Assembly: GCF_021389955.1 (NCBI RefSeq)
Contig: NZ_CP089980.1
Location: 3,777,001 to 3,841,000, forward strand
Source: Fulvivirga maritima
GTDB lineage: Bacteria; Bacteroidota; Bacteroidia; Cytophagales; Cyclobacteriaceae
DNA: 64,000 bases
Reading direction: 5' to 3'
In this document: positions 30,641-51,920 of the stretch, one piece after another
Layout of the letters: the number at the start of each line of letters is the position of its first letter
Numbering within the stretch: position 1 is the stretch's first letter
Notes under the pieces: model-generated
The model's input: the letters and a program-made list of their open reading frames with translations, nothing else
What the model was told of the DNA's origin: nothing
Databases searched by the model: none
Program-made: the position numbers and the translations under genes

Positions 30641-31418
30641 AACCTATTTCTCGAATAACTTCTGATGTTTGCAGAAAATCGAGCCCTAAAAATAGCCTTA
30701 TGCTCTTTAACTCACTGGATTTTGCCATATTTCTTCCTATAGTATTTGTGTTATATTGGTTTGTTGTCAATCATAACCTGAAATTACAAAACATGCTAAT
30801 CCTAATAGCTAGTTACGTTTTCTATGGATGGTGGGACTGGCACTTTTTGTCATTGATTTTTTTTAGCACAATTGTGGATTATTATGTTGGAATCTTCTTA
30901 AATGATCAAAGTAGTATCATTAAAAGGAGGATGTTACTTTTGATTAGTGTTGTTGTAAATTTAGGATTTCTTGGATATTTTAAGTATTGTAATTTTTTCT
31001 TAGATAGTTTTACGTCAGCTTTTACATTTTTTGGAGGATCTTTACACGTAGATACTTTAAAGATAATTCTTCCAGTTGGCATAAGTTTTTATACTTTTCA
31101 AACATTGAGTTATTCTATTGATGTTTATAGAGGAGAATTACGACCAACCAAAGATTTTATCGCATTTGGTGCATTTGTTAGCTTCTTTCCCCAATTGGTC
31201 GCTGGACCCATTGAAAGAGCTTCACACTTACTTCCTCAGTTTTATAGAAAGAGAAGGTTTGATTATGAAAAGGCAATTGACGGTTTACGTCAAATTTTGT
31301 GGGGGTTAGTTAAGAAAATAGTGATTGCTGATAATTGTGCTGAATTTGCTAATCAAATATTTGACAAATATGATCGTCTAAGTGGAAGTACCCTAGTCTT
31401 GGGGGCTGTATTTTTTAC

Positions 31419-31440
31419 ATTTCAAATCACTAGTGTCCGA
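31419..31440. repeat. left target duplication (9 bp) and left inverted repeat (13 bp) of the IS4-family element
   Basis: ATTTCAAAT (31419-31427) is the target duplicate and CACTAGTGTCCGA (31428-31440) the terminal inverted repeat. The first eight bases of the repeat are themselves palindromic. Confidence 0.95.
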
Positions 31441-32819
31441 GAAAAAAGATAGGGGCCTCTGAATAATTTCAAGAGTGCCCCATAATGTGTATTTTCGGTT
31501 TACCACAACAAAAAATCACACATGAGTAAAAATACATATTTCTACGGACAGCCAATCTTTTCTCAACTATTATCGCTGATAGATAAATCGGTGTTAAATC
31601 AAATAATATCAAAATACCAATCTGACAGATATTACAAGAAATTGAATACTTGGCATCACCTAGTAAGCATGTTATACTGCTGTTTCAGTGGGGCAAGTGC
31701 TCTCAGAGAGCTTACTACGGGGCTTTTGGCCTGCCAAAACAAGCTGATCCATTTAGGTATTCAATTTATACCCAGACGTTCCACTTTATCAGATAGCAAC
31801 AAAAAACGCAGTAGTATAGTCTTTGCAGACATTTACATGAAATTGTTTAAAAAGTATCGGCACCTTTTGCCGGACAGCCGCTTGAGAATGGAAGTTCTCA
31901 ATAAACTTTATATTGTTGATTCAACGATTATTAGTCTGTTTAAAGATATTCTCAAGGTAGCAGGACGCCCTAGAAAAGATGGCAAAAGCAAGGGAGGCAT
32001 TAAAGCTCATGTAATGATTCATGCGGCAGAATTAATGCCATGTTTAGTACGGTTGACCAAGGGAAGTCAGCATGATCATACATTTTTAAAGCAATTACAA
32101 CTCCCAGAAGGATCCTATGTGGTGATGGATAAAGGGTATATCGATTATAGACAATACGCACAATGGAGTCATCAAGGGATATTTTACATTACTAGAATGA
32201 AGGAAAATGCCAGATATCAATCAATAGATGAGCTAGAACTGCCTGAAGATAAAGACTTTTGTGTACTTAAGGATGAAAAAGTTGTTATCAGTTTCAAGAC
32301 TGATGGACAAGTGCAAGAGCTTCAAAATAGAAGAATAGCCTATTATGATGACCTCAATAATAAATTATTAGTGTTTATGACCAATAATATGGAGTTGGAA
32401 GCAGCCACAATAGCGGCCATTTATAAATACCGATGGCAGATAGAGCTTTTATTTAAAAAGCTGAAGCAGAACTTTCCTCTCAAATATTTTCTGGGGGACA
32501 ACCAAAATGCTATTGAGATCCAAATTTGGAGTGCCCTGATCTGTCTATTATTGATGGAAGTAGTCCGAAAACAGATCAAAAAAAGATGGGCCTTCTCTAA
32601 TATGGTCTCATTGGTAAGGTTTCACTTGATGGCCTATGTTCACCTTACCCGCTTTCTAAACAATCCAGACCTAGAACTTCAAAAAACAATATATAAAACC
32701 AATCAATACCCTTTATTTAGTCCATAGAGGGCTCACTTTTCCAGATTAGAAGAAAACCACTTTATTTTTGCTTAGAATCGCTAAAATTTCTTAGACCAGA
32801 GTTTAGTCGGACACTAGTG
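31428..32819 (+). mobile_element. IS4-family insertion sequence, complete (1392 bp)
   Basis: Thirteen-base perfect inverted repeats bound the element and 9-bp direct repeats (ATTTCAAAT) flank it. One full-length transposase gene fills it. Duplication length and transposase motifs fit the IS4 family. The perfect target repeats and the intact split host gene indicate a recent insertion. The transposase is on the same strand as the disrupted gene. Confidence 0.95.
31522..32727 (+). CDS. IS4-family transposase (DUF4372 type N-terminus)
   Basis: The 401-residue DDE transposase has an N-terminal helical domain like DUF4372 (YFYGQPIFSQLLSLID). The catalytic aspartates lie in YIVDSTIISLF and VVMDKGYIDYRQYAQW, and the IS4 signature Y-x2-R-x3-E-x6-K is intact in YKYRWQIELLFKKLK. 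No frameshift or stop interrupts it, so it may be active. Confidence 0.94.
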   Translation: MSKNTYFYGQPIFSQLLSLIDKSVLNQIISKYQSDRYYKKLNTWHHLVSMLYCCFSGASALRELTTGLLACQNKLIHLGIQFIPRRSTLSDSNKKRSSIVFADIYMKLFKKYRHLLPDSRLRMEVLNKLYIVDSTIISLFKDILKVAGRPRKDGKSKGGIKAHVMIHAAELMPCLVRLTKGSQHDHTFLKQLQLPEGSYVVMDKGYIDYRQYAQWSHQGIFYITRMKENARYQSIDELELPEDKDFCVLKDEKVVISFKTDGQVQELQNRRIAYYDDLNNKLLVFMTNNMELEAATIAAIYKYRWQIELLFKKLKQNFPLKYFLGDNQNAIEIQIWSALICLLLMEVVRKQIKKRWAFSNMVSLVRFHLMAYVHLTRFLNNPDLELQKTIYKTNQYPLFSP

Positions 32820-32828
32820 ATTTCAAAT
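32807..32828. repeat. right inverted repeat (13 bp) and right target duplication (9 bp) of the IS4-family element
   Basis: TCGGACACTAGTG (32807-32819) is the exact reverse complement of the left end. ATTTCAAAT (32820-32828) repeats the left target copy. Confidence 0.95.
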
Positions 32829-33551
32829 TTATGGTGATTTTTCAGGATATTCAGATATGGCGATAGGCATATCTAGGTTGTTTGGATTCAACCTAATGCA
32901 AAACTTTAATTATCCTTATTTTTCAAGGGACGTGGCTGAGTTTTGGAGAAGGTGGCATATTTCATTATCTACCTGGTTTAGAGATTATCTGTATATACCG
33001 TTAGGGGGAAGTAGGGGAGGTAGATGGATGCAAATTCGAAATACATTTATAATCTTTTTAGTTAGTGGCCTTTGGCATGGTGCTAATTGGACTTTTATTA
33101 TATGGGGTTTTTTAAATGCTTGCTATTTTTTACCTCTTTTATTAACCAAAAAAAACAGATTGAATCTTGGGGTAATTTCGGAAGGACGAATTTTGCCTTC
33201 TTATAAAGATATTGTTTCTATAACATTTACCTTTTCTATGACTGTATTTGCTTGGATTTTTTTTAGATCTGAAGACTTATATCAAGCACTAAATTATATT
33301 TCAAGAATGTTTTCTTCTACTCTATTTTCTTTTCCAAAATTTACAGATATGGGGCATGCTTTTGAGACATTAGTATTAATAATTGTTTTTTTGATGATTG
33401 AATGGAATGGTAGAAATGAGAGATATGCTATTGCTAAATTAGGCTTCAAGTGGCGGAGAACTACGCGTTTGGCGATTTATTATGCTTTGGTCATAGCAAT
33501 ATTTTGGTATTGGGGAAATGGGCAAGAGTTTATTTATTTTCAGTTTTAAAT

Positions 33552-37751: not shown

Positions 37752-38743
37752 AGGGTGGAACTTTAGTAATTTCTTTGGATTTTGAATTGCACTGGGGAGG
37801 TTCTGAAAAATGGACCTTAAATGATTCTAAAAAACAATATTTTGAGAATACAAGGAAATGCATTCCAACTCTACTCACCCTTTTTGAAAGTTCAGGAATA
37901 AGTGTAACCTGGGCCACAGTAGGTTTTCTCTTTTTTAAGGAGAAAAAGGAATTGTTAGCGAATCTGCCTGAAGTGGAACCAACTTATAATGATAGTTCTA
38001 TCTCAGCGTATAATTACCTGAAAAATAATTGGGTAGGTGATACAGAAGAAGAAGATCCATTTCATTTTGCTCACTCTCTTTTAGACTTGGTTAAAGCCTC
38101 TAGAGGTCAAGAGATAAGTACCCATTCATTTTCTCATTATTATTGTAATGAAGATGGACAAACAGCCGAGCAGTTTTATTCAGATCTAAAAGCAGCAGAT
38201 GGGGCGGCTCAAAAATTTGATGTTATACCTAAGTCTTTAGTGTTTCCTCGAAACCAATATAATGCAGAGTATCTAAAAGCTTGCAAAAGAGCTGGAATTG
38301 AGATAGTTAGAGTAAACCCTTTGGATTGGTGGTGGCAAATTGATAGTACTCAATCGGAATCCAAGTGGAAAAGGTTAAATAGAGGAGCAGATGCTTATTT
38401 TTCAATAGGAGGTAAAACTTCATTTTCACTGAGTCAAATTAAAAAAGAGGAGGGGGTATGGTTATTACCCGCAAGTCGTTTATTGAGACCTTATAACCCT
38501 AAGGAGCTCTTTTTGAATGATTTAAAAATAAAGAAAATCAAAAAGGAGATGACCTTGGCAGCTAAAAATAATGAGGTCTATCATTTATGGTGGCACCCCC
38601 ATAATTTTGGAAACTATACTCAAGAAAATATCAATGGACTAGTTGAAATTGTTAATCACTATCAGTTTTTGCATAAGGAGTATGGTATGAATAGCAAAAG
38701 TATGGGAGAAATGGCTACAATTTTGAATAATCAACATGGCTAA
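37748..38743 (+). CDS. polysaccharide deacetylase family protein
   Basis: The frame is open from 37700, but ATG 37748 overlaps the previous stop by four bases and has AGGAGG about ten bases upstream, so this start is well supported (331 residues). The NodB-type motifs are LVISLDFELHWGG (metal Asp), STHSFSHYYC (metal His pair) and FPRNQYN. These enzymes remove N-acetyl groups from sugars. Here it may act on a precursor or on the finished glycan. No signal peptide is seen, so action in the cytoplasm is likely. Confidence 0.83.
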   Translation: MKGGTLVISLDFELHWGGSEKWTLNDSKKQYFENTRKCIPTLLTLFESSGISVTWATVGFLFFKEKKELLANLPEVEPTYNDSSISAYNYLKNNWVGDTEEEDPFHFAHSLLDLVKASRGQEISTHSFSHYYCNEDGQTAEQFYSDLKAADGAAQKFDVIPKSLVFPRNQYNAEYLKACKRAGIEIVRVNPLDWWWQIDSTQSESKWKRLNRGADAYFSIGGKTSFSLSQIKKEEGVWLLPASRLLRPYNPKELFLNDLKIKKIKKEMTLAAKNNEVYHLWWHPHNFGNYTQENINGLVEIVNHYQFLHKEYGMNSKSMGEMATILNNQHG

Positions 38744-39884
38744 CAAGTTACTTAGAATTACTACCGTTCCTATTTCTCTTAACATTCTTCTTAAAGGTCA
38801 ACTCAAGTTTATGAGAGAAAATGGCTTTGAAGTAATAACTACTAGTGCGGATGGAGTGGAGGTAGCAGAAGTGAAGGAAAGGGAGGGTGTAAGTCATATC
38901 ATAATTCCGTTTACACGTGCAATTACGCCATTTCAAGACTTGAAATGTCTTCGTATGCTGGTTAAGGTTATTAAAGAAGAGGCTCCGGATATTGTACATA
39001 GTCATACTCCTAAGGCAGGGTTGTTAGGCATGATGGCAGCAAAAATCGCAGGAATCAAGCACCGATTACATACTGTTGCAGGTTTGCCGTTAATGGAAGC
39101 AACTGGGGGTAAAAGAAGTATTTTGAAATTCACTGAAGCAATTACTTATGCATGTGCTTCGAAGGTTTATCCTAATTCATATAAGCTTCAGGAATATATT
39201 TTGAATAACTTGTCTATAAATAAGGATAAGTTGAAAGTAATAGGGAAGGGAAGTACCAATGGAATTGATTTAAACGTCTTTAATAAGTCTTTAGAAATTA
39301 TCGATAAAGGAGAACGGTGGAAGAGTGAACTAAATATTCCAAATGAAGCCTTTGTTTATTTATTTATAGGAAGAATTGTTGGAGATAAAGGGATAAATGA
39401 ATTGGTTAAGGCATTTATACAATTAAATGATGAATCATCTTATCTTGTGTTGGTGGGGCCTTTAGAAGAGCTGGATCCGCTATCGAAAGAAACCATGGAT
39501 GCTATTGCCAACAATAAAAATATTATTGCTCCCGGTTTTCAATCAGACGTAAGACCATTTTTAGCATTTACAGATGTTTTTGTTTTTCCTAGTTATAGGG
39601 AAGGATTCCCTAATGTGGTTTTGCAAGCCTCTGCTATGGGAGTGCCAACAATCGCTTCTGATATTAATGGGTGTAATGAGATAATAAATCATGAAGAATC
39701 AGGATTACTCATACCTACAAAGCAAGTGCCGCCATTATACAAGGCAATGCAATTACTTAGAGATGATGAAAGGAAAAGAACTGAAATGGCGGGAGTTGCC
39801 TTAAAAAATGTTCATGAAAATTATGATCAGCAATTTGTTTGGAGCTGTTTAATTAAAGAGTATAAAGAACTACTTCATGTATAA
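38736..39884 (+). CDS. GT4-family glycosyltransferase
   Basis: The 382-residue enzyme has IVHSHTPKAGLLGMMAAKIAG and HTVAGLPLMEATGGK in the acceptor half, as in capsule enzymes acting early on a lipid-linked bacillosamine-type sugar (PglA/WbpT-like). The donor half has LFIGRIVGDKGINELVKAF and FPSYREGFPNVVLQASAMGVP. It overlaps both neighbours by eight bases and precedes the initiating transferase. It may therefore add the second sugar; that is inference. Confidence 0.87.
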   Translation: MANKLLRITTVPISLNILLKGQLKFMRENGFEVITTSADGVEVAEVKEREGVSHIIIPFTRAITPFQDLKCLRMLVKVIKEEAPDIVHSHTPKAGLLGMMAAKIAGIKHRLHTVAGLPLMEATGGKRSILKFTEAITYACASKVYPNSYKLQEYILNNLSINKDKLKVIGKGSTNGIDLNVFNKSLEIIDKGERWKSELNIPNEAFVYLFIGRIVGDKGINELVKAFIQLNDESSYLVLVGPLEELDPLSKETMDAIANNKNIIAPGFQSDVRPFLAFTDVFVFPSYREGFPNVVLQASAMGVPTIASDINGCNEIINHEESGLLIPTKQVPPLYKAMQLLRDDERKRTEMAGVALKNVHENYDQQFVWSCLIKEYKELLHV

Positions 39885-40482
39885 GCAATTCCTAAAACCA
39901 TTAGCTGATCGGCTCGTAGCTTTAATAGCATTTATTTGTTTGTTTCCTGTCTTCGCGATAGTGACGCTGCTTTTAATTGTGGCAAATAAAGGAGACGCTT
40001 TTTTTACGCAAGCAAGACCAGGTTATAAAAATCGGATTTTTAAAGTCATTAAGTTCAAAACTATGACTGATGAGCGAGATACAGATGGTAACTTGCTGCC
40101 AGATAAAGATCGTCTTACGGCTGTGGGCAGTTTTGTAAGGAAAACCTCATTAGATGAAATTCCTCAGCTTATCAATGTAATTAAAGGCGATATGTCATTT
40201 GTCGGTCCTCGTCCATTATTGGTGGAGTATCTTGAGTTATATGATGAGGCTCAAATCAGACGACATGATGTAAAACCGGGTATTACTGGTTGGGCACAGG
40301 TCAACGGGCGCAATGCCATAAGTTGGCAACAGAAATTTGCTTATGATGTATGGTATGTAGAGCATCAATCGTTTTGGTTAGATATAAAAGTCTTATTTTT
40401 GACTGTCTTCAAGGTCTTTAAAGCAGAGGGTATTTCTGCTGAAGGGCAAGTGACAATCGAAAAATTTAAAGGTAATAATTGA
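39877..40482 (+). CDS. pglC: initiating sugar phosphotransferase (PglC-like)
   Basis: The 201-residue monotopic phosphoglycosyl transferase moves a sugar phosphate from UDP-diacetamido-sugar to undecaprenyl phosphate. It has an N-terminal re-entrant helix (about 8-33), FKVIKFKTMTDERD, the catalytic Asp-Glu pair in TSLDEIPQLINVIKGDMSFV, and GPRPLL, GITGWAQVNGRN and YDVWYVEH. Small size matches PglC rather than the long WbaP form. PglD, PglE and PglF homologs in the same cluster support bacillosamine as the first sugar. Confidence 0.9.
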   Translation: MYKQFLKPLADRLVALIAFICLFPVFAIVTLLLIVANKGDAFFTQARPGYKNRIFKVIKFKTMTDERDTDGNLLPDKDRLTAVGSFVRKTSLDEIPQLINVIKGDMSFVGPRPLLVEYLELYDEAQIRRHDVKPGITGWAQVNGRNAISWQQKFAYDVWYVEHQSFWLDIKVLFLTVFKVFKAEGISAEGQVTIEKFKGNN

Positions 40483-41087
40483 TGTTTTTATTTGGTGCCA
40501 GTGGCCATGCTAAGGTAATTACTGAAATGATTCAGCTTAATGGGGGTAATGTGTCTGGTTTTTATGATGATGACCCGCAAAAAACTTCCCTTATGGATAT
40601 TCCTGTTTTAGGGAATACTGAGGCGTATAAATCTGGCAATGAAAAGTCTTTGATAAGTATTGGTAATAACCGAATAAGGAAGAAGGTTACTGAACAAATA
40701 GAAGCTACATATGGACAAGTAATTCACCCCAAAGCTGTTGTTTCTGAAACCGTTGAAATAGGAGAAGGAACCGTGGTTATGGCCGGGGCAGTAATTAATC
40801 CATATACCAAAATTGGGAAACATGTTATTATTAATACTGCAGCATCTGTAGATCATGATTGCCATGTGAGTGATTTCGTTCACATAGCTCCTAAATCCAC
40901 TTTATGTGGAGGTATATCTATTGGCGAAGGTACCTTGGTAGGTAGTGGTTCCGTAATTATACCAAATACCAAGGTAGGAAAATGGGTGACCATTGGAGCT
41001 GGAAGTGTTGTTATTGAAGATGTGCCAGACTACGCTGTAGTGGTGGGAAACCCCGCTAGAATTATAAAGTATAACTCTGAGCGATGA
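40479..41087 (+). CDS. pglD: PglD/NeuD-family sugar O/N-acetyltransferase
   Basis: The 202-residue protein has an N-terminal Rossmann-like part (FLFGASGHAKVI) and a left-handed beta-helix with the catalytic histidine in AASVDHDCHVSDFVHIAPK and a final GAGSVVIEDVPDYAVVVGNPAR. PglD acetylates the 4-amino group of the UDP-sugar made by PglF and PglE. It overlaps pglC and the next gene by four bases each. Confidence 0.88.
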   Translation: MMFLFGASGHAKVITEMIQLNGGNVSGFYDDDPQKTSLMDIPVLGNTEAYKSGNEKSLISIGNNRIRKKVTEQIEATYGQVIHPKAVVSETVEIGEGTVVMAGAVINPYTKIGKHVIINTAASVDHDCHVSDFVHIAPKSTLCGGISIGEGTLVGSGSVIIPNTKVGKWVTIGAGSVVIEDVPDYAVVVGNPARIIKYNSER

Positions 41088-41698
41088 AAAAAATAGCTAT
41101 ATATGGAGCTGGTGGGTTAGGAAGAGAAGTGCTTACCATCATAAATGCCATTAATTCTGAAAAAGCAACTTGGGATTTTATTGGTTTTTTTGATGATAGC
41201 GCACCCAATGTTTTAGGAGGAATTAATGAACTTAATAGTTGGAGGGAGCCTCTTTCTCTTATTATTGCTATAGGTAATCCTTCTGTTAAGAAAGGTTTGG
41301 AAACTCATATTGAGAATGATTTCATTGATTATGCCACCCTCATACACCCCAGAGCTATTTTAGCGGATGATAACATTGAAGTGGGCAAAGGTTCTGTAGT
41401 TGGTGCTGGGGCTATACTTACTACCAATATTGAAATAGGAGATCATGTTTTGTTGAATTTAAATGTAACTATTGGGCATGATTGCCAAATAGGTTCTTTC
41501 TGTTCTATCATGCCAGGAGCTAATATCTCCGGTCAGGTTACATTAGATGAGGCTGTTTTGGTAGGATCCGGAGCTAATATACTCAATGGTATAATGGTTG
41601 GGCGAAAAGCTAAAGTAGGATCAGGTGCAACAGTAACTAAAAACGTACCTTCGAAAATTACAGTGGTAGGGGTTCCTGCTAAACCCATTCAAAAATGA
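41084..41698 (+). CDS. second PglD/NeuD-family acetyltransferase
   Basis: The 204-residue protein has the same architecture as the gene before it: IAIYGAGGLGREVLTIINA, then NLNVTIGHDCQIGSFCSIMPG with the catalytic histidine, and GVPAKPIQK at the end. It is clearly diverged from its neighbour. It may acylate a different amino sugar or position. It overlaps xrtF by four bases (ATGA). Confidence 0.87.
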   Translation: MKKIAIYGAGGLGREVLTIINAINSEKATWDFIGFFDDSAPNVLGGINELNSWREPLSLIIAIGNPSVKKGLETHIENDFIDYATLIHPRAILADDNIEVGKGSVVGAGAILTTNIEIGDHVLLNLNVTIGHDCQIGSFCSIMPGANISGQVTLDEAVLVGSGANILNGIMVGRKAKVGSGATVTKNVPSKITVVGVPAKPIQK

Positions 41699-42231
41699 AT
41701 ATCTCTGAGTTTAAGCCAGCTATACTATTTATAGTAAAGTTTCTAGTGTTATATCTGGGGCTAAACTTATTATACGGTTTTTATATTGATACCTACTCAC
41801 CCTCACCAGACCCAATTACAGTAATTGTTACCAATCAGGTGTCTGGCGTAATGTCTGTTTTTGACAATGGTGTGGAAGCATCAGATAATCAGGAGAAGCC
41901 TTCTGTGTTTTTGAGTTTAAATGGCTATAACATACTTTCAGTTTATGAAGGGTGCAATGGACTCAATGTAATGATAGTATTTCTTGTATTTCTATTATCA
42001 TATGGTAAACCAATAAGAAAGCTTTTATGGTTTATACCATTAGGTTTGGTTAGTATTCACTTATTTAACCTTATACGTATAATATTACTTTTTTGGGTAG
42101 CACAAGACTTCCCCGAAATGATGTATTTTGCTCATAAATATTTATTTACGGCATTTCTTTACATTATAGTGTTCTTAATGTGGTTCTGGTGGGTTGTGAA
42201 ATTATATAAAATACCAAGTGAAGAATCTTAA
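41695..42231 (+). CDS. xrtF: exosortase F family protein
   Basis: The 178-residue membrane protein has the exosortase catalytic triad: C87 in VYEGCNGLNV, R128 in HLFNLIRIILL and H147 in YFAHKYLF, each at the edge of a hydrophobic helix. Exosortases cleave C-terminal sorting signals of surface proteins and are linked to exopolysaccharide production. The small size and the partner gene downstream fit XrtF of Bacteroidota. It overlaps the acetyltransferase before it by four bases and its partner by 14, so it is part of the glycan operon. Confidence 0.88.
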   Translation: MNISEFKPAILFIVKFLVLYLGLNLLYGFYIDTYSPSPDPITVIVTNQVSGVMSVFDNGVEASDNQEKPSVFLSLNGYNILSVYEGCNGLNVMIVFLVFLLSYGKPIRKLLWFIPLGLVSIHLFNLIRIILLFWVAQDFPEMMYFAHKYLFTAFLYIIVFLMWFWWVVKLYKIPSEES

Positions 42232-42634
42232 CTTCAGACCATCTCAATACATAGTCTTAGTATTGGCTTCTACGGGATTACTTTTAGTTTATCTATTTCA
42301 AAAGAATCTTGATCAAATTATAGGCGCTTACATAGAGGATCATTATTGGTCATTTGTATTGACTAAATCTATTAGGTTTATATTAAATGACTTATTAATG
42401 ATAGCCATAATATACGCTCTTTTTTTAAAGAGGAAATATGTGGTTTTTGCATTTTATGTACAGTTAGTAGGAGTTATTTTTATACTATCGCCATATCTTA
42501 TTATAAAGTCTCAAACTTCTTATAATGGTCCCCTAGTTTCGTACCTTCACAGGCTGGTAGTTAACCCGCTATTAATGCTATTATTAATACCTGCAATTTT
42601 TTATCAGGAGAATATTACAAAACAGAAATCTTAA
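42218..42634 (+). CDS. exosortase F system-associated membrane protein
   Basis: The 138-residue protein with four hydrophobic helices contains SIRFILNDLLMIAIIYALF and YLHRLVVNPLLMLLLIPAIFY. These match the small membrane protein regularly found next to exosortase F. The start is GTG 42218, inside the end of xrtF. Its molecular role is unknown; it is probably a subunit or helper of the exosortase. Confidence 0.8.
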   Translation: MKNLNFRPSQYIVLVLASTGLLLVYLFQKNLDQIIGAYIEDHYWSFVLTKSIRFILNDLLMIAIIYALFLKRKYVVFAFYVQLVGVIFILSPYLIIKSQTSYNGPLVSYLHRLVVNPLLMLLLIPAIFYQENITKQKS

Positions 42635-42655
42635 TCTATTTATACTTCGTAAATC

Positions 42656-43777
42656 ATGGAAAGAGTTTATTTATCATCGCCGCATATGGGTGGAACAGAA
42701 TTAAAATATATTCAAGAAGCGTTTGATGCCAACTGGATATCTCCGGTCGGGCCTAATATTGCGGCCTTTGAAAATGATTTAGCTTCTTACACCGGTAGAG
42801 AGCATGCCGCTGCCCTTAGTTCTGGTACAGCTGCTATACATGTGGCATTAATATTACTTGGAGTTAAAGCTGGTGATGAAGTGATGTGTAGTTCATTTAC
42901 CTTTGCAGGTACTTGTAACCCAATAGTTTATCAAGGGGCACATCCTGTATTTGTAGATTCTGAAGAAGATACATGGAATATGGATCCTGAGTTGCTAAAA
43001 GAAGGTATTGAAGATAGGATAAAGTCAGGAAAAAAGCCGAAGGCAATTATTGTAGTCCATTTATATGGTATGCCAGCTAAAATGGATTTGATTATGAAGG
43101 TGGCGAGGGAGTTTGATATTCCTGTCATAGAGGATGCTGCCGAAGGGCTAGGAGCCTCTTATGATGGGAAAAAGTTGGGCTCCTTTGGAGACTTGAGTAT
43201 TTTGTCTTTTAATGGAAACAAAATCATTACCACTTCAGGGGGAGGAGCACTGCTTTCTAATAATAAGGAATATATTGATAAAGCTAAGTTTTTAGCTACT
43301 CAGGCTCGAGATAATGCTCCTCATTATGAACATAGCTCTATAGGATATAATTACAGACTTAGTAATATCAGTGCAGGTATAGGACGAGGGCAAATGGAGG
43401 TATTAGAGCAGCGTGTTAACAGGAAACGAGAAATATTTGAATATTACAAAAATGAGTTATCTGATATTGATAATATTCAATTTTTAGAAGAGTTTGATAA
43501 ATGCTTTTCAAATAGATGGTTGACCACTATTTTGGTTGATGGCACTAATGGTGCAAAGGTGAAAGATGATGTAAGAATATTGCTTGAAAAAAATAATATT
43601 GAGTCAAGACCACTGTGGAAACCAATGCACATGCAGCCTGTTTTTGAAGGATCACGTGCCTATTTGAACGGCGTTTCGGAGAAATTATTTGAAATTGGTC
43701 TTTGTTTGCCATCAGGAACTAACACTACAGATGCTGATTTATCACGTACTATTGAGTTAATAAAAGAATGTTTTTAG
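42656..43777 (+). CDS. pglE: DegT/DnrJ/EryC1 aminotransferase (PglE-like)
   Basis: The 373-residue PLP enzyme has SSPHMGGTELKYIQEAFDANW at the N-terminus, the SSGTAAIHVAL cofactor loop, VIEDAAEGLGA, and the PLP lysine K189 in SFNGNKIITTSGGG. This pattern is that of aminotransferases making UDP-4-amino-4,6-dideoxy sugars, acting after PglF and before PglD. It lies 21 bases after the exosortase partner. Confidence 0.9.
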   Translation: MERVYLSSPHMGGTELKYIQEAFDANWISPVGPNIAAFENDLASYTGREHAAALSSGTAAIHVALILLGVKAGDEVMCSSFTFAGTCNPIVYQGAHPVFVDSEEDTWNMDPELLKEGIEDRIKSGKKPKAIIVVHLYGMPAKMDLIMKVAREFDIPVIEDAAEGLGASYDGKKLGSFGDLSILSFNGNKIITTSGGGALLSNNKEYIDKAKFLATQARDNAPHYEHSSIGYNYRLSNISAGIGRGQMEVLEQRVNRKREIFEYYKNELSDIDNIQFLEEFDKCFSNRWLTTILVDGTNGAKVKDDVRILLEKNNIESRPLWKPMHMQPVFEGSRAYLNGVSEKLFEIGLCLPSGTNTTDADLSRTIELIKECF

Positions 43778-43823
43778 GTTACTTCAGTTAGCCTATAGGT
43801 ATCTATATCAATGTTATTATAAT

Positions 43824-43831
43824 TATATTTG
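43824..43831 (+). promoter_or_regulatory. candidate -7 promoter element for the large T9SS protein
   Basis: TATATTTG matches TAnnTTTG and lies 38 bases before the ATG at 43870, in the 92-base gap after pglE. A -33 element is not evident. An internal promoter here would let the surface protein and exosortase substrate be expressed apart from the glycan enzymes. Confidence 0.4.
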
Positions 43832-43869
43832 TTGCGAGATATTGGTTGTAAGGTTTTAACAAATTACTC

Positions 43870-46800
43870 ATGAGGTTATTTTTACTATTAGTTTTATATA
43901 TAAGCGTCAATTTTGGGCTAAGTGCTCAGACTATTCAATCTGCACAAAGTGGGAATTGGAATGACCCAAGTACTTGGGTTGGAGGAGTTGTGCCTACTGC
44001 AGCAAATTCATCTGGTATAATTATTAATAATGGCCATTCTGTAGCTGCCAATTCTAACGTGTCAGCAGATCAGATGATTATTAATGATGGAGGTGAATTA
44101 ATAATAAATTCTGGCATTACTTTTACTGTTGGAGCGGGTACGGGTGATGATCTGACGGTTAATAGTGGTGGAATTCTTGAAATCAGTTCAGGTGCAATTT
44201 TAAATATTCAACGTATTGTTAGTCCACCTCCTCCAAGAGTTGCTTTTATACGAGTATATGGGATAGTAAATAATTCAGGTACGATTAATAATGCTTCATC
44301 AACTAGTATGATCTTTGAAGCAGGTTCGATATATAATCATGAATTTACAACAACTAGTGGTGTTATCCCTTCAGCTAGCTGGAATGTTCAATCGACTTGT
44401 GTCATTTCAGGGTATACTACTAATACAGCAGCTCCTACGGGCTTAAGTCAGGCTTTTGGTAACTTTACGTGGGATACGCCAAATTTAACTGAATACATTG
44501 ACCTTCAAGGAGCTTTGACGGATGTAAATGGAGACTTATTATTTCAAAATCTTACGGGAAATTATGTTTACCTGACCTCGCTCAACGATTATACATTAAA
44601 TGTTGGAGGTGATTTTATTATTGATAATTCTAATTTTGGTATTAACTCTTCAGCCATTGTATCTTTAAATGTAACAGGCGACGTAAGCTTTATAAATAAT
44701 GTTGACTTAACTTTTGTTTATGATGGAACATCAAGTTTAAATATTGGAGGAAATTTAACTGTTTCTGGTGGATCTGTCAATTTGACCTATGAAGGACCTG
44801 GATCTATAAGCATTGATTTAGACGGAGATTTTTCACTAATATCATCTCCATTTATTAGTAATGGAGGATCGGGACTATATGAGTTTGCTTTCAGTGGTGT
44901 AGAGCAAATTTTTACAGGTGAACAAGGTTTTCCAGGTTTCAATTATACCATTTCTAGTAGCAGTTTAGAAATCCCTGTTAATAGTTATCTTAGAGGTAAT
45001 GATTTTTTATTGGAAACAGGAAGTGAGCTGAGGGTTGGTTCTACCGCTGCTAACGGAGCTATTCAAACAGGAACATCAGCAGGAAATATAAGGGTTAGCG
45101 GAGTAAGAGCATTTCAATCTGGCTCTACCATTGCTTATAATGGAACGTCTGCTCAATTTATAGGAGCTGGTCATCCTACTTCTTCAGGGGTTAACCTTAC
45201 AATAAACAATAGTAGTGGGGTTACTATGGTTTCAAACCTTACTGTAGGTAATGCTTTAAATCTTCAATCAGGTAATTTATCTGTGGGGAATAATACATTG
45301 ACATTAGATGATGGTATATCAGGAGCAGGGCGTATAGCCGTTTCGTTAAACTCCAACATAGTGTTGAATGGTAATAATGCAGATGATACCTTCCCTTTTG
45401 AAGGTGCCGCCAATTTCAACAATTTCACGCTAAATAGATCTGGAGGATCTGTTACATTTGATAGAGAAGTAACGATTAATGGTGCATTAACTTTATCAAA
45501 TGGTGATCTGATATTTGATAATCAGATTTTACATTTAAATGGAACGTTAAGCAATGTAAGTGGTTTGCTTTATTCAAACAGTGCTAGCGAATTAGATATA
45601 ACTGGTTCGGATGCGTTTGGATCACTTGCTTTCAATACTAGTGGTAATAATTTACGTAAGTTAACGATTAATAGGGTAGAGGGAGAGGTGGATCTGGTAG
45701 GCACTCTTAATGTTGTTGATTCTTTACTTTTAAATCAGGGTACTTTTAATAATACAAATGGGACACTTGCTTTTAGTAATGGTACTGATTTAATTAAGAA
45801 TGCAACAGGTGCGTTAATTGGAAATTCTCCTGAGGTTGTTTCACCAAGTACCTACAATGTTGTTTACGAAGGAGCTTCGCAAACTACAGGTGCAGAATTG
45901 CCAAGCTCTCTTAATGTAGATGATTTAGGTGATTTAACGATCTTAGCCGCTGAGACTGTTACCCTTTCTCAAAGCCTTCAGGTTAACGGAACTACCACAC
46001 TTGGCTCAGGAGTTTTCAATATCGGAGCCAATACTTTAAATATTCAGGGAAATTGGGTGCGAAATAATGGTTCATTAGCTAATTATTCTGGTACAGTTTT
46101 GTTTGGTGGTAATACTACCATTACGGCTAATTCAACTCCTACTTTTAGAAATATTACTGTTTCTGAAAATGGAATATTATCTATGCCTAATACTAATGTC
46201 AATTTTGCGGCTAATATATTGGTAGAGCCAGGGGGTACACTTAATGCTAACTCTGGCACAATAGTTATGACCGGAACAAATGGTCAAACGGCTTCATTTG
46301 CTAATTCCACTTTGAATAACTTAACTATTGATAAAAGTTCTGGCACGGTGAGTTTAACTAGTGCACTAAATGTAAGAGGAAGAGTAAATTTCACCAATAC
46401 CAGTGTAGCTACACTGGCATCTGGTGGTAACTTAACTTTATTGTCTACAGCCGACAATGGATCAGGAGATGCGTGGGTAAGTGAGATACCTTCAGGTTCA
46501 TTAGTTTCTGGGAATGTTACCGTTCAAAGGTTTATTAGCTCAAATGCAAGTGGAGATATATATAGGTATATTGGATCTTCTGTAGCTGGAGCTACAGTTG
46601 CTGATTTAAGTGCTGATATTAGAGTAGTTAATGGTTCATTGTTCTACTATGATGAGACGGTGAGTGGTGAATCTGCTAACGGGTGGGTAAGAAAAACTTC
46701 TGGGACATTAGATGTAGGAAGAGGATATTCGGCTTATATTTTTAGTAGTAATACATCAAAAACAATAAGCTTAACCGGTGTTTTGAATCAAGGAGCTATA

Positions 46801-47991
46801 AATTTACCTGTTTCCTATACTGTAAGTTCTCCTGAAAATGATGCAGATGGATGGAACTTAGTGGCTAATCCATACCCTTCACCTATCTTTTGGGGGAGCA
46901 CTGAAGGTTGGACTAAAACAAATATTGATGGGAGCATTTATCTGACAGATAATGAAGATGAGATTTACAGATATTGGAATGGTACAGAAGGGAATATAAT
47001 CTCAGGTCGAATTGCTAAAGGACAATCTTTTTGGGTACAAGCCTCAGGTGCATCTCCTCAGTTATCCATTAATGAAAAGGCAAAATCGAATAGTACAGCG
47101 GCATTTTACCGTGAAGCCGAAAAAGATGCTATTGAATCATTAGAAATTGTTCTAATAGATGTAGAAGGCAAGCAAGACTATGCTTACTTCGGTTTTAAAG
47201 AAGGAGCTACTAATGTATTCGATAATGCGTATGATGCCATAAAAATGAATAATCAGATATTTGATTTGTCAACCGTAGATGGAGATGGTAGACAGATGGC
47301 AATTAATATATTTTCTGCGTTAAGCTGTTCTGATTCATTGAAAATAAACATTAAGGATGCTCCTCAGGGAACTTATAATATTAGGTTTAATGATTTGGGA
47401 GTATTCTTTGATAATTATAGTTTTCAGCTCTATGATAGCTATTTAAATCATATGGAAGAAGTTGCAGATCAAAGTGTGTATTCATTTAGTATTGATGAAA
47501 ATAGTAAATCTACAGGTAATAGGTTTTTCCTTTTGCCAAAAGCGGAGCCTCCGGTAATTTCTTTATCAGAAGGAAATTTGGAGTCTAGTCAGGAAGGTGG
47601 TAATAAATGGTATTTTAATGGTCAATTGATATCCGAAGACGATTTCATTTATCCGGAGCAAGCAGGTATATATACATTAGACGTTTGTAATGGAAGTACT
47701 ACCTATGAATATATCATTACAGGAATTGATGATTATGTAAATCAAGGTATTAGAATTTATCCTAATCCATTAATTGATAGTGAAGAGTTAAATGTACATA
47801 TAGATGAGGGAATAATCGACTATTCTAACGCTAAACTCCAATTAATTGATTCCAAAGGGCGTGTTGTTGATGCGAAGGAAATTACTAACAATTTCGTTAA
47901 ATTGAATGTTAATTCATTACCTAGTGGTGTATATTTGTTAAATATATCCGATAATAGTACAAGTACAATACAAAGGATAATTAAACTTTAA
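43870..47991 (+). CDS. large repetitive surface protein with T9SS type A sorting domain
   Basis: The 1373-residue protein has a signal peptide (MRLFLLLVLYISVNFGLSAQ) and then SAQSGNWNDPSTWVGGVVPT, a common opening of Bacteroidota surface proteins. About 900 residues of Asn/Gly/Ser/Thr-rich repeats follow (patterns such as LTINNSSGVTMVSNLTVGNALNL and LNNLTIDKSSGTVSLTSALNV), suggesting a beta-helix or stacked-strand adhesin. The last 80 residues (GIRIYPNPL ... SGVYLLNISD ... IQRIIKL) are a T9SS type A C-terminal signal, so it should be exported by the type IX system and attached to the surface. Two cysteines occur late (SALSCSDS and LDVCNGS). Its place inside the pgl cluster suggests a link to the glycan. 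Confidence 0.88.
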   Translation: MRLFLLLVLYISVNFGLSAQTIQSAQSGNWNDPSTWVGGVVPTAANSSGIIINNGHSVAANSNVSADQMIINDGGELIINSGITFTVGAGTGDDLTVNSGGILEISSGAILNIQRIVSPPPPRVAFIRVYGIVNNSGTINNASSTSMIFEAGSIYNHEFTTTSGVIPSASWNVQSTCVISGYTTNTAAPTGLSQAFGNFTWDTPNLTEYIDLQGALTDVNGDLLFQNLTGNYVYLTSLNDYTLNVGGDFIIDNSNFGINSSAIVSLNVTGDVSFINNVDLTFVYDGTSSLNIGGNLTVSGGSVNLTYEGPGSISIDLDGDFSLISSPFISNGGSGLYEFAFSGVEQIFTGEQGFPGFNYTISSSSLEIPVNSYLRGNDFLLETGSELRVGSTAANGAIQTGTSAGNIRVSGVRAFQSGSTIAYNGTSAQFIGAGHPTSSGVNLTINNSSGVTMVSNLTVGNALNLQSGNLSVGNNTLTLDDGISGAGRIAVSLNSNIVLNGNNADDTFPFEGAANFNNFTLNRSGGSVTFDREVTINGALTLSNGDLIFDNQILHLNGTLSNVSGLLYSNSASELDITGSDAFGSLAFNTSGNNLRKLTINRVEGEVDLVGTLNVVDSLLLNQGTFNNTNGTLAFSNGTDLIKNATGALIGNSPEVVSPSTYNVVYEGASQTTGAELPSSLNVDDLGDLTILAAETVTLSQSLQVNGTTTLGSGVFNIGANTLNIQGNWVRNNGSLANYSGTVLFGGNTTITANSTPTFRNITVSENGILSMPNTNVNFAANILVEPGGTLNANSGTIVMTGTNGQTASFANSTLNNLTIDKSSGTVSLTSALNVRGRVNFTNTSVATLASGGNLTLLSTADNGSGDAWVSEIPSGSLVSGNVTVQRFISSNASGDIYRYIGSSVAGATVADLSADIRVVNGSLFYYDETVSGESANGWVRKTSGTLDVGRGYSAYIFSSNTSKTISLTGVLNQGAINLPVSYTVSSPENDADGWNLVANPYPSPIFWGSTEGWTKTNIDGSIYLTDNEDEIYRYWNGTEGNIISGRIAKGQSFWVQASGASPQLSINEKAKSNSTAAFYREAEKDAIESLEIVLIDVEGKQDYAYFGFKEGATNVFDNAYDAIKMNNQIFDLSTVDGDGRQMAINIFSALSCSDSLKINIKDAPQGTYNIRFNDLGVFFDNYSFQLYDSYLNHMEEVADQSVYSFSIDENSKSTGNRFFLLPKAEPPVISLSEGNLESSQEGGNKWYFNGQLISEDDFIYPEQAGIYTLDVCNGSTTYEYIITGIDDYVNQGIRIYPNPLIDSEELNVHIDEGIIDYSNAKLQLIDSKGRVVDAKEITNNFVKLNVNSLPSGVYLLNISDNSTSTIQRIIKL

Positions 47992-48002
47992 ACTTAAGTA
48001 CT

Positions 48003-48197
48003 GTGAATCAATTTTTTAAAATAGGCGTATTGTTTCTGCTGATTGCCATATATCCTTGTGTGGTATTTGCACAGGGAGGTGGAGTGCCACCACCCAATCC
48101 ACCTGCACCTGTTCCCATAGGAGGAATAGAGTTATTATTAATGGCTGGTGGAGCGTTAGGGCTTAAGAAGATTATCTCTTCTCGAAAAAAGAAATAA
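48003..48197 (+). CDS. small secreted protein with an exosortase-type C-terminal sorting signal
   Basis: The 64-residue protein has a signal peptide (residues 1-24, ending VVFAQ), a short Pro-rich stretch (GGGVPPPNPPAPVP), the motif PIGG (38-41), a hydrophobic helix (42-54) and a basic tail (SSRKKK). This tripartite end is that of PEP-CTERM-like exosortase substrates; small Pro-rich proteins with a P-I-D/G-G motif accompany exosortase F. The mature part would be only about a dozen residues. The start is GTG 48003, 11 bases after the T9SS gene, and pglF follows at once. Confidence 0.75.
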   Translation: MNQFFKIGVLFLLIAIYPCVVFAQGGGVPPPNPPAPVPIGGIELLLMAGGALGLKKIISSRKKK

Positions 48198-48198
48198 T

Positions 48199-50124
48199 GT
48201 GATAACTAGATTTTTTATACAATTAAGAATCCTTCCAAGATGGATAATCATTCTCTTGGATGTGGTTATAGTTGGATTTTCTACATTTCTTGGCTATTTA
48301 CTAAGGTTTAATTTTGAGTTTAGTGAACTGAGTGAATTTAATTTCGCTTTGGGTATACTCATTAATATGCTGGCTTGTCTTATTGCGTTGCTAACAACTA
48401 AAAGTTATGCTGGTATTGTAAGATATACTGGTATGCATGATGGGTTTAGAGTGCTTGTAACACTTGTTGCTACTCATGTTATCAGTTCCTTGGTGAACGT
48501 TGGTTATTTCATGTCTATTGGGAGTAACCTATTTCCATATTCGGTTATTCTTATTTCATTTTTGGCATCCTTTGTATTCTTATTACAATACAGACTGCTC
48601 ATAAAAAATATATTCTCATACTATAGAAGTCCTCGTAAAGCTGATAAAATGCGTGTAGCAATCTTCGGAGCGGGTCAGCTAGGTATGATTACTAAGCAGG
48701 TGTTAGATAACAGTGTTGAGCCAAATTATCGTGTGGTAGCTTTTATTGAGGATGATTTAACCAAAGTGGGAAAGGTTATCAATGGAACTCAGATATATGA
48801 CGGAGCAACTGATCTCTCATCTATTATTAAATCCCTAGATATAAAAGAATTAATCATTGCAGCTACTAATTTATCTCTTGATAGGAAAAATGAGGTGGTA
48901 GATGTCTGTTTAGCCTTGAATGTGAGGGTCAGAACTATTCCGGAGGTAGATGATTGGGTGAAGGGTGAGCTTAGCTTAAATCAGATAAAACAAGTTAATA
49001 TAGAGGATCTCTTGGGCAGAGAGTCTATTGAACTGAATAATAGACAAGTATTGGATCAATTGAAAGGGAAGAGAGTTTGCATTACAGGTGCTGCAGGTTC
49101 TATTGGTAGTGAGCTTGTAAGGCAAGTCGCACATTTTGATCCTGAATTACTAGTGCTAATTGATCAGGCGGAGTCTGCGTTATATGAAGTAGAACGAGAG
49201 ATGACCAGCTCTGAGCGGGATGCCAGGTTTAAGTTTTATGTAGCAGACGTTACCAATCATAAGCGGATAAGTGAAATTTTTGAAGAAAACAAACCTGAAA
49301 TAATATTTCATGCCGCAGCTTATAAGCATGTGCCTATGATGGAGCGCAATCCGTCTGAAGCAGTCCTTTGTAATATTATAGGAACCAGAAACATAGCCAA
49401 TTTAGCAGTTGAGTTTGGAGTTGAGAAATTTGTGATGGTTTCTACTGACAAAGCAGTAAATCCAACTAATGTGATGGGATGCTCAAAGAGGATTGCTGAA
49501 ATCTATGTGCGAGCTTTAAATAAGAAGCTGAGGCAGACAGGGTCTAATAAAACTTCTTTTGTAACTACCAGATTTGGTAATGTGCTTGGGTCTAACGGCT
49601 CTGTGATTCCATTTTTTCAAAAGCAAATTAGTGATGGGGGACCTGTAACGGTAACACACCCTGAGATTACAAGGTACTTTATGACCATAACAGAGGCCTG
49701 TCAGCTAGTGCTGGAAGCCGGTGCAATGGGTAATGGTGGTGAGATCTTTATTTTTGATATGGGACAGTCTGTAAAGATTGTAGACCTTGCTAAGAAGATG
49801 ATCCGCTTATCTGGCCTGGAGTTAGATAAGGATATCGAAATTGTATTTACTGGTCTAAGGCAAGGAGAGAAACTGTATGAAGAGCTATTAGCTAGTAAGG
49901 AGAATACTGTGCCTACTCATCATGAAAAGATCATGATTGCAAAGGTGTTAGAATATGATTTTGATAGAATAAATAATAGTCTTGACCAACTTAAGCAATT
50001 ATCGGTTGCCTCTGCGGATAGATACAAGATTGTAGGCCTAATGAAGGAAATTGTTCCTGAATATAAGAGTATGAGCTCTGAATATCAAATATTGGATAAA
50101 CAGCTAGCTCAGAAAGTGGGATAA
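48199..50124 (+). CDS. pglF: membrane UDP-GlcNAc 4,6-dehydratase (PglF/CapD-like)
   Basis: The 641-residue protein has four N-terminal membrane helices (about 10-140), a first Rossmann-like domain (VAIFGAGQLGMIT) and a C-terminal dehydratase domain with VCITGAAGSIGSELVRQV (about 291-308), FHAAAYKHVPMMERNP and STDKAVNPTNVMGCSKR. Met in place of the usual catalytic Tyr is a known trait of PglF-type enzymes. It makes UDP-4-keto-6-deoxy-GlcNAc for PglE and PglD. The start is GTG 48199. It is the last gene of the polysaccharide locus, followed by a terminator. Confidence 0.92.
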   Translation: MITRFFIQLRILPRWIIILLDVVIVGFSTFLGYLLRFNFEFSELSEFNFALGILINMLACLIALLTTKSYAGIVRYTGMHDGFRVLVTLVATHVISSLVNVGYFMSIGSNLFPYSVILISFLASFVFLLQYRLLIKNIFSYYRSPRKADKMRVAIFGAGQLGMITKQVLDNSVEPNYRVVAFIEDDLTKVGKVINGTQIYDGATDLSSIIKSLDIKELIIAATNLSLDRKNEVVDVCLALNVRVRTIPEVDDWVKGELSLNQIKQVNIEDLLGRESIELNNRQVLDQLKGKRVCITGAAGSIGSELVRQVAHFDPELLVLIDQAESALYEVEREMTSSERDARFKFYVADVTNHKRISEIFEENKPEIIFHAAAYKHVPMMERNPSEAVLCNIIGTRNIANLAVEFGVEKFVMVSTDKAVNPTNVMGCSKRIAEIYVRALNKKLRQTGSNKTSFVTTRFGNVLGSNGSVIPFFQKQISDGGPVTVTHPEITRYFMTITEACQLVLEAGAMGNGGEIFIFDMGQSVKIVDLAKKMIRLSGLELDKDIEIVFTGLRQGEKLYEELLASKENTVPTHHEKIMIAKVLEYDFDRINNSLDQLKQLSVASADRYKIVGLMKEIVPEYKSMSSEYQILDKQLAQKVG

Positions 50125-50582: not shown

Positions 50583-51920
50583 TTAGGCGGCCTGAAGTAG
50601 TGGTATGTTTTCTGATTTCTTTTTGCTCATCTTAACAGCATTGGCCATCATAACGGCAAAGAATACATGTATCATTTCTCGTTTTTCTCCCTTAACCTTG
50701 ATTTTATTCAGGCCGTAAGCCGTTTTATGGGTACCAAAACTTCCCTCCATCACGGTTGCTCTCTGGTTAGAGATGAGGCTTCTGAGTTTGCTTTCCTCAG
50801 GTTTGTTTATCTTGGGGCCTTTCTTTGGAAAGCAAGTGAACACTTTCCTTACTGTTAAATACTTTCTGTTGGCATTAGTGGCATAAATGCGATCTGCCCC
50901 CAGCTGATGAAGGGAGCCAAATATCGATCTATGTTTTAAACTACTTATTTTTAGTCTGGTACTTTCATTGAATGCCCTGAACTCCATGGCATCAATAAAG
51001 CAGATGTCGTCAACCTGAAGCATGTGGGCTTTCATTCCAAACTCAACCCTTTTAGTTTCTTTGCCTCTTACGATAGGCCTGACATAAGGTCTGGGAAGCG
51101 ATACTATCCTGTTTTTCAATTCTTTAGCTGGATGATGCTGCAAGAATTGCTGTTGCCCAAGTACCTTCTGTATTGTTTTTAGGTATGCTCGCTCTTGAAA
51201 GTGAAGCTGTATTTGTGGGTTTTCATTGAGTAAGTACTGCAGCTGTCCAAGCCCTTTGGACAGTAGATATATCAATGCCTTTTTACGCTTGCGTCCAGCT
51301 TTGTATGTCTTTTTTCGACTACGATCGTAAGACATCTGCTTGCGTTTTTGATCTATATATTTGGAGCGAGGCCGTTTTACACCTAATATTTTACTCCATC
51401 TGTAAAGCTGTTTTTCAAACACCCATTGACAGCTTTCCCAAAGTAGTTTTACATCGGTAGGAAAACGAATATAACTTTCATAGCAAGTGGCATCCATTAA
51501 GAGAACATGCGTATTATTCATATCTCTTTTCCAATGATGAATGAGTACTTCCTGAAGTTGTTGCCAATCAGTATTATCAGCCATATACGTCCTGATTCTA
51601 CTTAAAATGGCCTTATCCTTAATTCTTTGGTTATCATCCAACAATTTATTGCAAAAAAGCTGAAGGCTCCAGTCAGTATTAAATCGTTCTATTAACTTCT
51701 CGTCACTCAGGTTTAAATAAGATTTTAGAAACATTAGACCAAACATGCCTTGGGCCGAAAACCAGCGGGGTGCGCCTGGGCCTCTATTTTCCTTTGGCAA
51801 ACATTCTGAAAGTTGACTCCAAGGAATAGTATTATAAACTTTCCTCAAGGTGCTATTCTTGAATAAGTACCATTTTGGAGTTAAGTAATCTTGCGGTTGG
51901 AAAAGCTCTTGATCTCTCAT
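50583..51920 (-). CDS. transposase with DUF772-type N-terminus (IS5/IS1182-like)
   Basis: The 445-residue protein opens with the helical DUF772-like region (APRWFSAQGMFGLMFLKSYL) and has DDE-type blocks VLLMDATCYESYIRF, GADRIYATNANRKYL and VMEGSFGTHKTAYGLNKIK. The last holds the catalytic Glu. A basic linker (about 185-215) precedes the second part of the catalytic domain. The frame is intact. Family IS5 versus IS1182 cannot be settled by eye. Confidence 0.88.
   Translation of the reverse strand: MRDQELFQPQDYLTPKWYLFKNSTLRKVYNTIPWSQLSECLPKENRGPGAPRWFSAQGMFGLMFLKSYLNLSDEKLIERFNTDWSLQLFCNKLLDDNQRIKDKAILSRIRTYMADNTDWQQLQEVLIHHWKRDMNNTHVLLMDATCYESYIRFPTDVKLLWESCQWVFEKQLYRWSKILGVKRPRSKYIDQKRKQMSYDRSRKKTYKAGRKRKKALIYLLSKGLGQLQYLLNENPQIQLHFQERAYLKTIQKVLGQQQFLQHHPAKELKNRIVSLPRPYVRPIVRGKETKRVEFGMKAHMLQVDDICFIDAMEFRAFNESTRLKISSLKHRSIFGSLHQLGADRIYATNANRKYLTVRKVFTCFPKKGPKINKPEESKLRSLISNQRATVMEGSFGTHKTAYGLNKIKVKGEKREMIHVFFAVMMANAVKMSKKKSENIPLLQAA

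Follow-up and report, generated by a model that had tools for sequence, protein, structure and literature searches.

The window, a 64-kb stretch of the Fulvivirga maritima genome (one contig, 6.39 Mb), encodes the exosortase XrtF, its membrane partner and a 64-residue CTERM protein, hereafter the small protein. Locus linkage, co-occurrence across genomes and the deletion phenotypes of Fjoh_0651 and xrtF in Flavobacterium johnsoniae indicate that XrtF probably acts on the small protein as its substrate. Somewhat more than half of the confidence in this reading goes to transfer of the resulting peptide rather than to its release. The targets of XrtF in Bacteroidota are treated as unknown in the available parts of two papers, one of them from 2025 (PMC10936215, PMC12188702). 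The ten genes of the block are as follows (T9SS, type IX secretion system).

38736..39884, plus strand, GT4 glycosyltransferase, overlapping the PglC gene by 8 bp (NCBIfam/Pfam scans)
39877..40482, plus strand, PglC-type phosphoglycosyl transferase, Bac_transf (Pfam PF02397, 209.9 bits)
40479..41087, plus strand, NeuD/PglD-type sugar acetyltransferase 1, NeuD-1 (TIGR03570, 231.9 bits, cut-off 160.8)
41084..41698, plus strand, NeuD/PglD-type sugar acetyltransferase 2, NeuD-2 (TIGR03570, 184 bits, cut-off 160.8)
41695..42231, plus strand, exosortase XrtF with Cys87, Arg128 and His147 (TIGR04128, 124.2 bits, cut-off 90)
42218..42634, plus strand, XrtF-associated membrane protein, GTG start (TIGR04127, 46.8 bits, cut-off 35)
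42656..43777, plus strand, PglE/LegC-type aminotransferase (LegC model, 404 bits, just below the cut-off of 420)
43870..47991, plus strand, giant T9SS type A cargo protein, 1373 residues (TIGR04183, 42.2 bits, cut-off 23)
48003..48197, plus strand, small CTERM protein, 64 residues, putative XrtF substrate (sequence reading, family alignment)
48199..50124, plus strand, PglF-type 4,6-dehydratase, 641 residues (PF02719, 404.7 bits)

The exosortase pair and the small protein

An earlier prediction made from the DNA alone (the original prediction) had placed XrtF, its partner and a CTERM-like protein inside a pgl gene cluster. All ten genes were found in that order and at those positions, and the coordinates reproduce the 4–14 bp overlaps it described from the PglC gene through the XrtF partner gene. 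The overlaps are 8 bp for GT4/PglC, 4 bp each for PglC/NeuD-1, NeuD-1/NeuD-2 and NeuD-2/XrtF, and 14 bp for XrtF/partner. Downstream, the genes are separated by short gaps of 21 bp (partner to PglE-like), 92 bp (PglE-like to giant), 11 bp (giant to small gene) and 1 bp (small gene to PglF).

The proposed identities of XrtF and its partner agree with the profile scores, both of which exceed the NCBIfam cut-offs. XrtF membership is further marked by the Cys/Arg/His residues and by the adjacent partner gene with its 14-bp overlap. The next-best model, XrtX (NF046081), scores 115.2 bits, below its cut-off of 170. Sequence alignment showed that Cys87 and Arg128 are kept in all 54 sequences and His147 in 51 of them, and the three catalytic residues are conserved both in XrtF and in more distant exosortase types. 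The predicted structure has a confident fold (pLDDT of 94.3). These features support XrtF as a peptidase-type exosortase with Cys87, Arg128 and His147. The window's genome has a single TIGR04128 match, and among 14 control genomes sub-cut-off matches were found in two, both archaeal. In the partner, R53, N57, R112 and P117 are invariant in 39 of 39 sequences, a hint that it may do more than serve as a scaffold.

The small protein consists of a signal peptide ending at A23, a Pro/Gly-rich stretch (Q24–P38), the motif VPIGGIE, a hydrophobic segment and a KKK tail, with the cut sites read from the sequence. By itself it has no NCBIfam or Pfam match at the thresholds used. An alignment of 18 small proteins showed invariant Q24, V37, P38, G41, G49 and G53, and the PID_CTERM model (NF046080) is matched by 14 of the 18 at E up to 1 (best 2.7e-6). 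The sequence and the alignment both display the PID-CTERM architecture of signal peptide, motif, hydrophobic helix and basic tail. The small protein is read as a divergent PID-CTERM relative, with a family motif that is mostly VP(I/L/F)xG(I/L/V)E. The predicted mature peptide, from the expected signal-peptidase cut before Gln to the VP boundary, is 12–18 residues long in all 21 family members by our reading of the cut sites; Pro makes up 36% of these residues, Gly 23% and Asp 13%. When a protein database was searched with the small-protein profile, 1187 of the 7991 scored candidates matched at E up to 1e-3, of which 120 were listed. UniRef gives two flavobacterial small CTERM proteins (P0123 and P0128) the name "Signal peptidase", probably an annotation error carried over from other entries.

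Co-occurrence and gene linkage across Bacteroidota

Comparisons were made in even samples of genomes, 98 for the window's family and 148 for its order, and the co-occurrence counts were compiled by hand. The window's XrtF is matched in 35 of the 98 family genomes, 22 of them strong (117 bits or more) and 13 weak. Strong hits for the small protein occur in 23 genomes, 21 of which also have a strong XrtF hit. The remaining strong-XrtF genome (G515) has a small-protein match of 44.6 bits, and the two genomes with a strong small match and no XrtF are both drafts (570 and 270 contigs). The window's own genome has one small-protein match. At 40 bits for XrtF and 25 bits for the small protein, 34 genomes are positive for each, with 31 positive for both, three for XrtF only and three for the small protein only (Fisher 1e-18). 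Three matches were dropped before this count, an XrtF match at 21 bits (G513) and two small matches at 18–19 bits in long open reading frames (ORFs; G464 and G456). In one family genome (G438), 12 small CTERM matches stand beside one weak exosortase match of 53.8 bits, possibly a many-to-one form.

The same association was found in 398 genomes of one genus, taken to be Flavobacterium. The small-protein profile A4 matches 350 genomes and TIGR04128 matches 352 (347 over the cut-off). Both are present in 340 genomes, neither in 36, XrtF only in 12 and the small protein only in 10 (Fisher 1e-31, with kinship ignored). The 36 genomes lacking both indicate that the A4 profile does not simply catch any small membrane protein, and all ten small-only genomes have 130 or more contigs. 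Profile-profile comparison of the flavobacterial and Cytophagales small proteins gave a probability of 98.2 over 31 C-terminal columns. Beyond these sets, the family small-protein profile was run on 55 further genomes with TIGR04128 or TIGR04127; 49 match at E<=0.1 and 45 at E<=1e-4, some of the weak ones in long ORFs. A TIGR04127 match is present in 25 of 295 genomes sampled across the class. These results bear out the earlier proposal of a substrate-like protein, whose presence tracks that of XrtF in both the family and Flavobacterium.

The gene neighbours are most constant on the side of the giant gene. The small gene was located in 21 family genomes, in three of them (G078, G485 and G454) beyond the stretch first read, and lies directly 3' of a giant gene in all 21, with gaps of -14 to +79 bp. 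The giants (928 to 2281 residues) are similar to that of the window. Profile scans of three giants (window, L174 and L187) confirmed a T9SS C-terminal domain in each, and a (Y/F)PNP motif is found near the C-terminus in 17 of the 21. No other gene accompanies the small gene as strictly as the giant gene does, a point that the original prediction did not weigh. Such tight pairing suggests a joint role for the peptide and the T9SS-type protein on the cell surface in the window's family. Three other loci (L089, L192 and L268) have a T9-like giant, then a small PID-type gene, then a weakly XrtF-like exosortase, so the association is not confined to the pgl-linked form.

The fixed position of the small gene behind the giant gene, often with an overlap, could also mean that the small protein stays uncut and serves XrtF or the giant as an accessory membrane subunit or an assembly factor. 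The pairing holds in two genomes in which xrtF lies on a different contig (G485) or ~27 kb away (G454). However, the protein has a tripartite sorting-signal architecture with a conserved boundary and a family that mostly matches PID_CTERM, and in the flavobacterial small-gene loci L253–L263 the small gene has no recognised giant neighbour, yet it still tracks XrtF. An accessory role is thus considered quite improbable. Mere hitchhiking of xrtF and the small gene on one polysaccharide island without a functional link is disfavoured still more strongly and hardly credible. The locus is a general exopolysaccharide (EPS) island that encodes many glycosyltransferases and has two transposase genes within it or next to it, but the co-occurrence holds in Flavobacterium, where the genes read are unlinked, and the two divergent sets of small proteins have the same C-terminal signal.

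Published genetics in F. johnsoniae bear on the substrate reading. One genome of the Flavobacterium set (G671) is probably F. johnsoniae UW101; its porZ ORF (2283 bp) and XrtF-partner ORF (447 bp) have exactly the lengths of the published fragments pCP0707 and pCP1449 in the part of the report available (PMC10936215). The only A4 match in G671 is an ORF of 80–88 residues, depending on the start, at 710501–710767 on the minus strand, with the C-terminus GLPINQDLPYLIAAGLLLGTAVIYRNKIKKASI and no NCBIfam or Pfam match. From two anchors confirmed by Pfam in G671, PorZ (Fjoh_0707 in the available part of PMC10936215) and OmpA (Fjoh_0697 in that of PMC12611786), the ORF count to this gene gives an index of 651 with a minimum of 90 or 100 codons, 650 with 70 or 80, and 646–647 with 60. 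Near neighbours include riboflavin synthase, PdxA, DNA methylase and Vsr genes. The only other listed ORF below 130 codons within ~4 kb is one of 64 residues at 707916, which we take to be ribosomal protein L32. In 14 of 15 related genomes, a small gene and porZ share a strand and are 44–77 kb apart, and in the 15th they are on different contigs; in five of the 15, with two or three small matches, porZ was paired with the match on its own contig where one existed. From these positions we infer that the G671 small gene is Fjoh_0651, the counterpart of the window's small protein.

In-frame deletions of xrtF (Fjoh_1448), Fjoh_1449 and Fjoh_0651 have identical rows in Table 2 of the available text, namely less sand colonization, much less biofilm and no zorbs (PMC10936215). 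There, Fjoh_0651 is a hypothetical gene complemented by a fragment of 434 bp with its presumed promoter; the part of the paper available leaves the substrates for future study and does not tie Fjoh_0651 to XrtF (PMC10936215).

Several points weigh against XrtF acting on the small protein. The phenotype is not specific, since strains that lack porU, porZ or Fjoh_0334 (an aminotransferase gene) have the same row in the part of the report available (PMC10936215). The identities of G671 as UW101 and of its small gene as Fjoh_0651 were reached by inference rather than taken from an annotated record, and the ORF index of 646 to 651 depends on the length cut-off. The window's own protein scores 11.5 bits against PID_CTERM (E 3.1), below the cut-off of 26; an equally loose threshold gives matches in 9 of 14 control genomes, so this match alone is no evidence. 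The co-occurrence statistics ignore relatedness, and up to 17 of the 398 genomes fed sequences to profile A4 and match by construction. XrtF without a small match occurs in 12 of the 398, including the near-complete G569 and G707, and also G867 and G871, whose XrtF matches are marginal (E 4–6e-4), while some Flavobacterium genomes have up to seven small matches. Thus, the pairing is not strictly one-to-one. Both the cleavage and the conjugate are predicted.

The exopolysaccharide setting and the possible fate of the peptide

The block is the 3'-terminal part of an EPS cluster of about 35 kb, which encodes Wza, Wzc and Wzx types as well as many glycosyltransferases, a setting that lay beyond the view of the original prediction. 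The closest PDB sequences to the aminotransferase are 1o61 (E 7e-113) and 4ztc (E 4.5e-112), the latter being Campylobacter PglE. NeuD-1 is nearest to 4ea7 and then 4m98 (perosamine and pilin-glycosylation acetyltransferases), and NeuD-2 to 4m9c and VioB (7txp). At the level of families, the dehydratase, 4-aminotransferase, N-acetyltransferase and phosphoglycosyl transferase of the bacillosamine PglF-E-D-C series are all present, which makes a bacillosamine-type route plausible. The same cluster contains genes for NeuB (PF03102) and a cytidylyltransferase (PF02348) at 18536–20241 of the window, which point to another possible use for the 4-amino sugar, with a nonulosonic acid of the polysaccharide as a possible product.

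Two transposase-type genes were also seen here. At 30700–33549 of the window, an MBOAT-type O-acyltransferase gene is apparently split by a DDE transposase gene (31522–32727; PF01609, PF14294), its 3' part (32857–33549) matching PF03062 and its 5' part (30700–31452) having no Pfam match. The other (PF05598) is at 50583–51920 on the minus strand, after the PglF gene at the end of the EPS cluster.

Reading of 23 XrtF-type family loci, window included and annotated by similarity to the window's proteins, showed a NeuD gene as the next annotated gene 5' of xrtF in 21, a PglE-like gene in 20 and PglC and PglF genes in 18 each. The partner gene follows xrtF in 21 of the 23; one locus (L183) ends 224 bp past xrtF, and in the other (L185) the partner was not found. 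The retention of pgl-type genes in most of these loci argues that the block is more than chance. The neighbourhood comparison that the original prediction proposed thus reveals linkage of xrtF to pgl genes (NeuD 21/23, PglE-like 20/23, PglC 18/23, PglF 18/23), which is far from absent among relatives.

The wider picture is different. An XrtF-like match is present in 56 of the 148 order genomes, above the cut-off in 19. PglC, NeuD and aminotransferase types occur together in only 5 of 60 order-level loci (L034–L037 and L046). Eleven flavobacterial-type XrtF loci (L123–L133, from three families with seven, two and two loci) have XrtF and its partner but no pgl set, with a single PglF-like gene in one of them (L123); no small gene lies within 10 kb of these loci, and small CTERM genes are found unlinked, elsewhere in most of these genomes. 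In one of the eleven genomes (G167, L133), which has XrtF, the TIGR04127 match is broken into two pieces, the first of which contains a TGA; a search of this genome for small CTERM matches at E up to 0.1 gave none. Among the loci read, it is mainly in the window's family that the pgl set occurs.

The original prediction went further and suggested that XrtF joins the small protein to, or releases it for, a bacillosamine-initiated glycan. Its substrate-like protein and the travelling of pgl genes with xrtF in the family both hold; a bacillosamine-initiated acceptor is unsupported as stated. The pgl set is missing from the 11 flavobacterial-type loci, as well as from 55 of the 60 loci read at order level, which speaks against a general bacillosamine-carrier rule. 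A special case of the substrate reading, with a bacillosamine-initiated glycan of the co-translated Pgl enzymes as the specific acceptor, would fit the overlapping PglC, NeuD/PglD and XrtF genes, the pgl-type genes kept in most family loci and the partial sets in other families (L138, L139, L140 and L046). It is nevertheless unlikely, given that small CTERM genes are present in most of the genomes whose flavobacterial-type XrtF loci have no pgl set, that the initiating transferase differs among relatives (PglC-query scores of 119 to 334 bits upstream of xrtF in the family) and that the NeuB-type genes offer the sugar another use.

A mechanism can be proposed for the substrate reading. XrtF and its membrane partner would be an exosortase dedicated to the tiny CTERM protein whose gene lies nearby. 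The signal peptide would direct export of the small protein, while the C-terminal helix and the basic tail would hold it in the inner membrane, and XrtF, through Cys87, Arg128 and His147, would cut it at or near the VP-(I/L)-x-G boundary, the expected site. The product, a peptide of 12–18 residues rich in Gln, Pro, Gly and Asp, would be handed to a surface molecule that the EPS cluster makes or that is exported with it, and in the window's family it may cooperate with the upstream-encoded giant T9SS-type cell-surface protein.

Alternatively, XrtF may cleave only and free a short secreted signal or matrix peptide. The small size of the predicted product in the window's family, its N-terminal Gln, which is able to cyclise, and the flavobacterial xrtF and small genes, which have no recognised glycan neighbours except one PglF-like gene, are in keeping with this. 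However, exosortases are proposed, in the part of one paper available, to conjugate the new C terminus to another compound (PMC7468200), and the EPS setting suggests an anchored product; cleavage alone is accordingly rated as doubtful. A more specific form of transfer, to which we give little weight, is that a pyroglutamate-capped Pro/Gly/Asp peptide of 12–18 residues is joined through its new C-terminus to a lipid-linked, here bacillosamine-primed, EPS, and that the peptidyl-glycan docks the giant T9SS-type adhesin at the cell surface. Such docking would explain why the small gene follows the giant gene in 21 of 21 family loci, and also the biofilm phenotype common to F. johnsoniae mutants in xrtF, its partner, the small gene, the T9SS and the sugar aminotransferase.

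Comparison with known systems

The locus points to the targets of XrtF, a family of tiny CTERM proteins mostly missed or under-scored by curated models, and gives a likely name, Fjoh_0651, to the substrate in F. johnsoniae; a strain deleted for this gene is available alongside those that lack xrtF and the partner gene. With so short a predicted product, this would be an unusual sorting system, nearer to peptide grafting than to protein sorting.

A close counterpart is the F. johnsoniae pair Fjoh_1448/1449 (XrtF and TIGR04127), which has the same families over the cut-offs, an overlapping gene pair and the Cys/Arg/His residues. The window pair lies inside a pgl/EPS operon with its probable substrate, whereas the flavobacterial pair has no pgl set and its substrate-like gene is unlinked. 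The PID-CTERM/exosortase X system has the same overall architecture. In ten of the 60 order-level loci, a small PIDGG/PFDGG protein starts 184–369 bp upstream of the exosortase gene (start to start), a filter known to miss some loci. The pgl set is present in none of the ten, two having a PglC-type gene and one a weak NeuD match, and their exosortases are called XrtX-type solely because they fall below the XrtF cut-off. The window differs in its motif, VPIGGIE, and its small protein and exosortase both score below the cut-offs of that system.

The PEP-CTERM/XrtA (EpsH) system likewise has its exosortase in an EPS cluster, and the window contains Wza, Wzc and GT4 homologues of XrtA-associated families. 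However, the window protein has no PEP motif, and the XrtA-system models score far below their cut-offs (e.g. TIGR03027, 44.4 vs. 180; TIGR03018, 125.2 vs. 230.65). In comparison with Campylobacter-type PglC/D/E/F, the window has the NeuD/PglD, PglC and PglF types and an aminotransferase nearest to 1o61 and 4ztc; it differs in having two NeuD-type genes and, by NCBIfam and Pfam, no oligosaccharyltransferase among the ten genes of the block, and its sugar product is predicted. Taken against these systems, XrtF in the window is an enzyme of a known kind that occurs in a new setting and has a candidate substrate family with good support.

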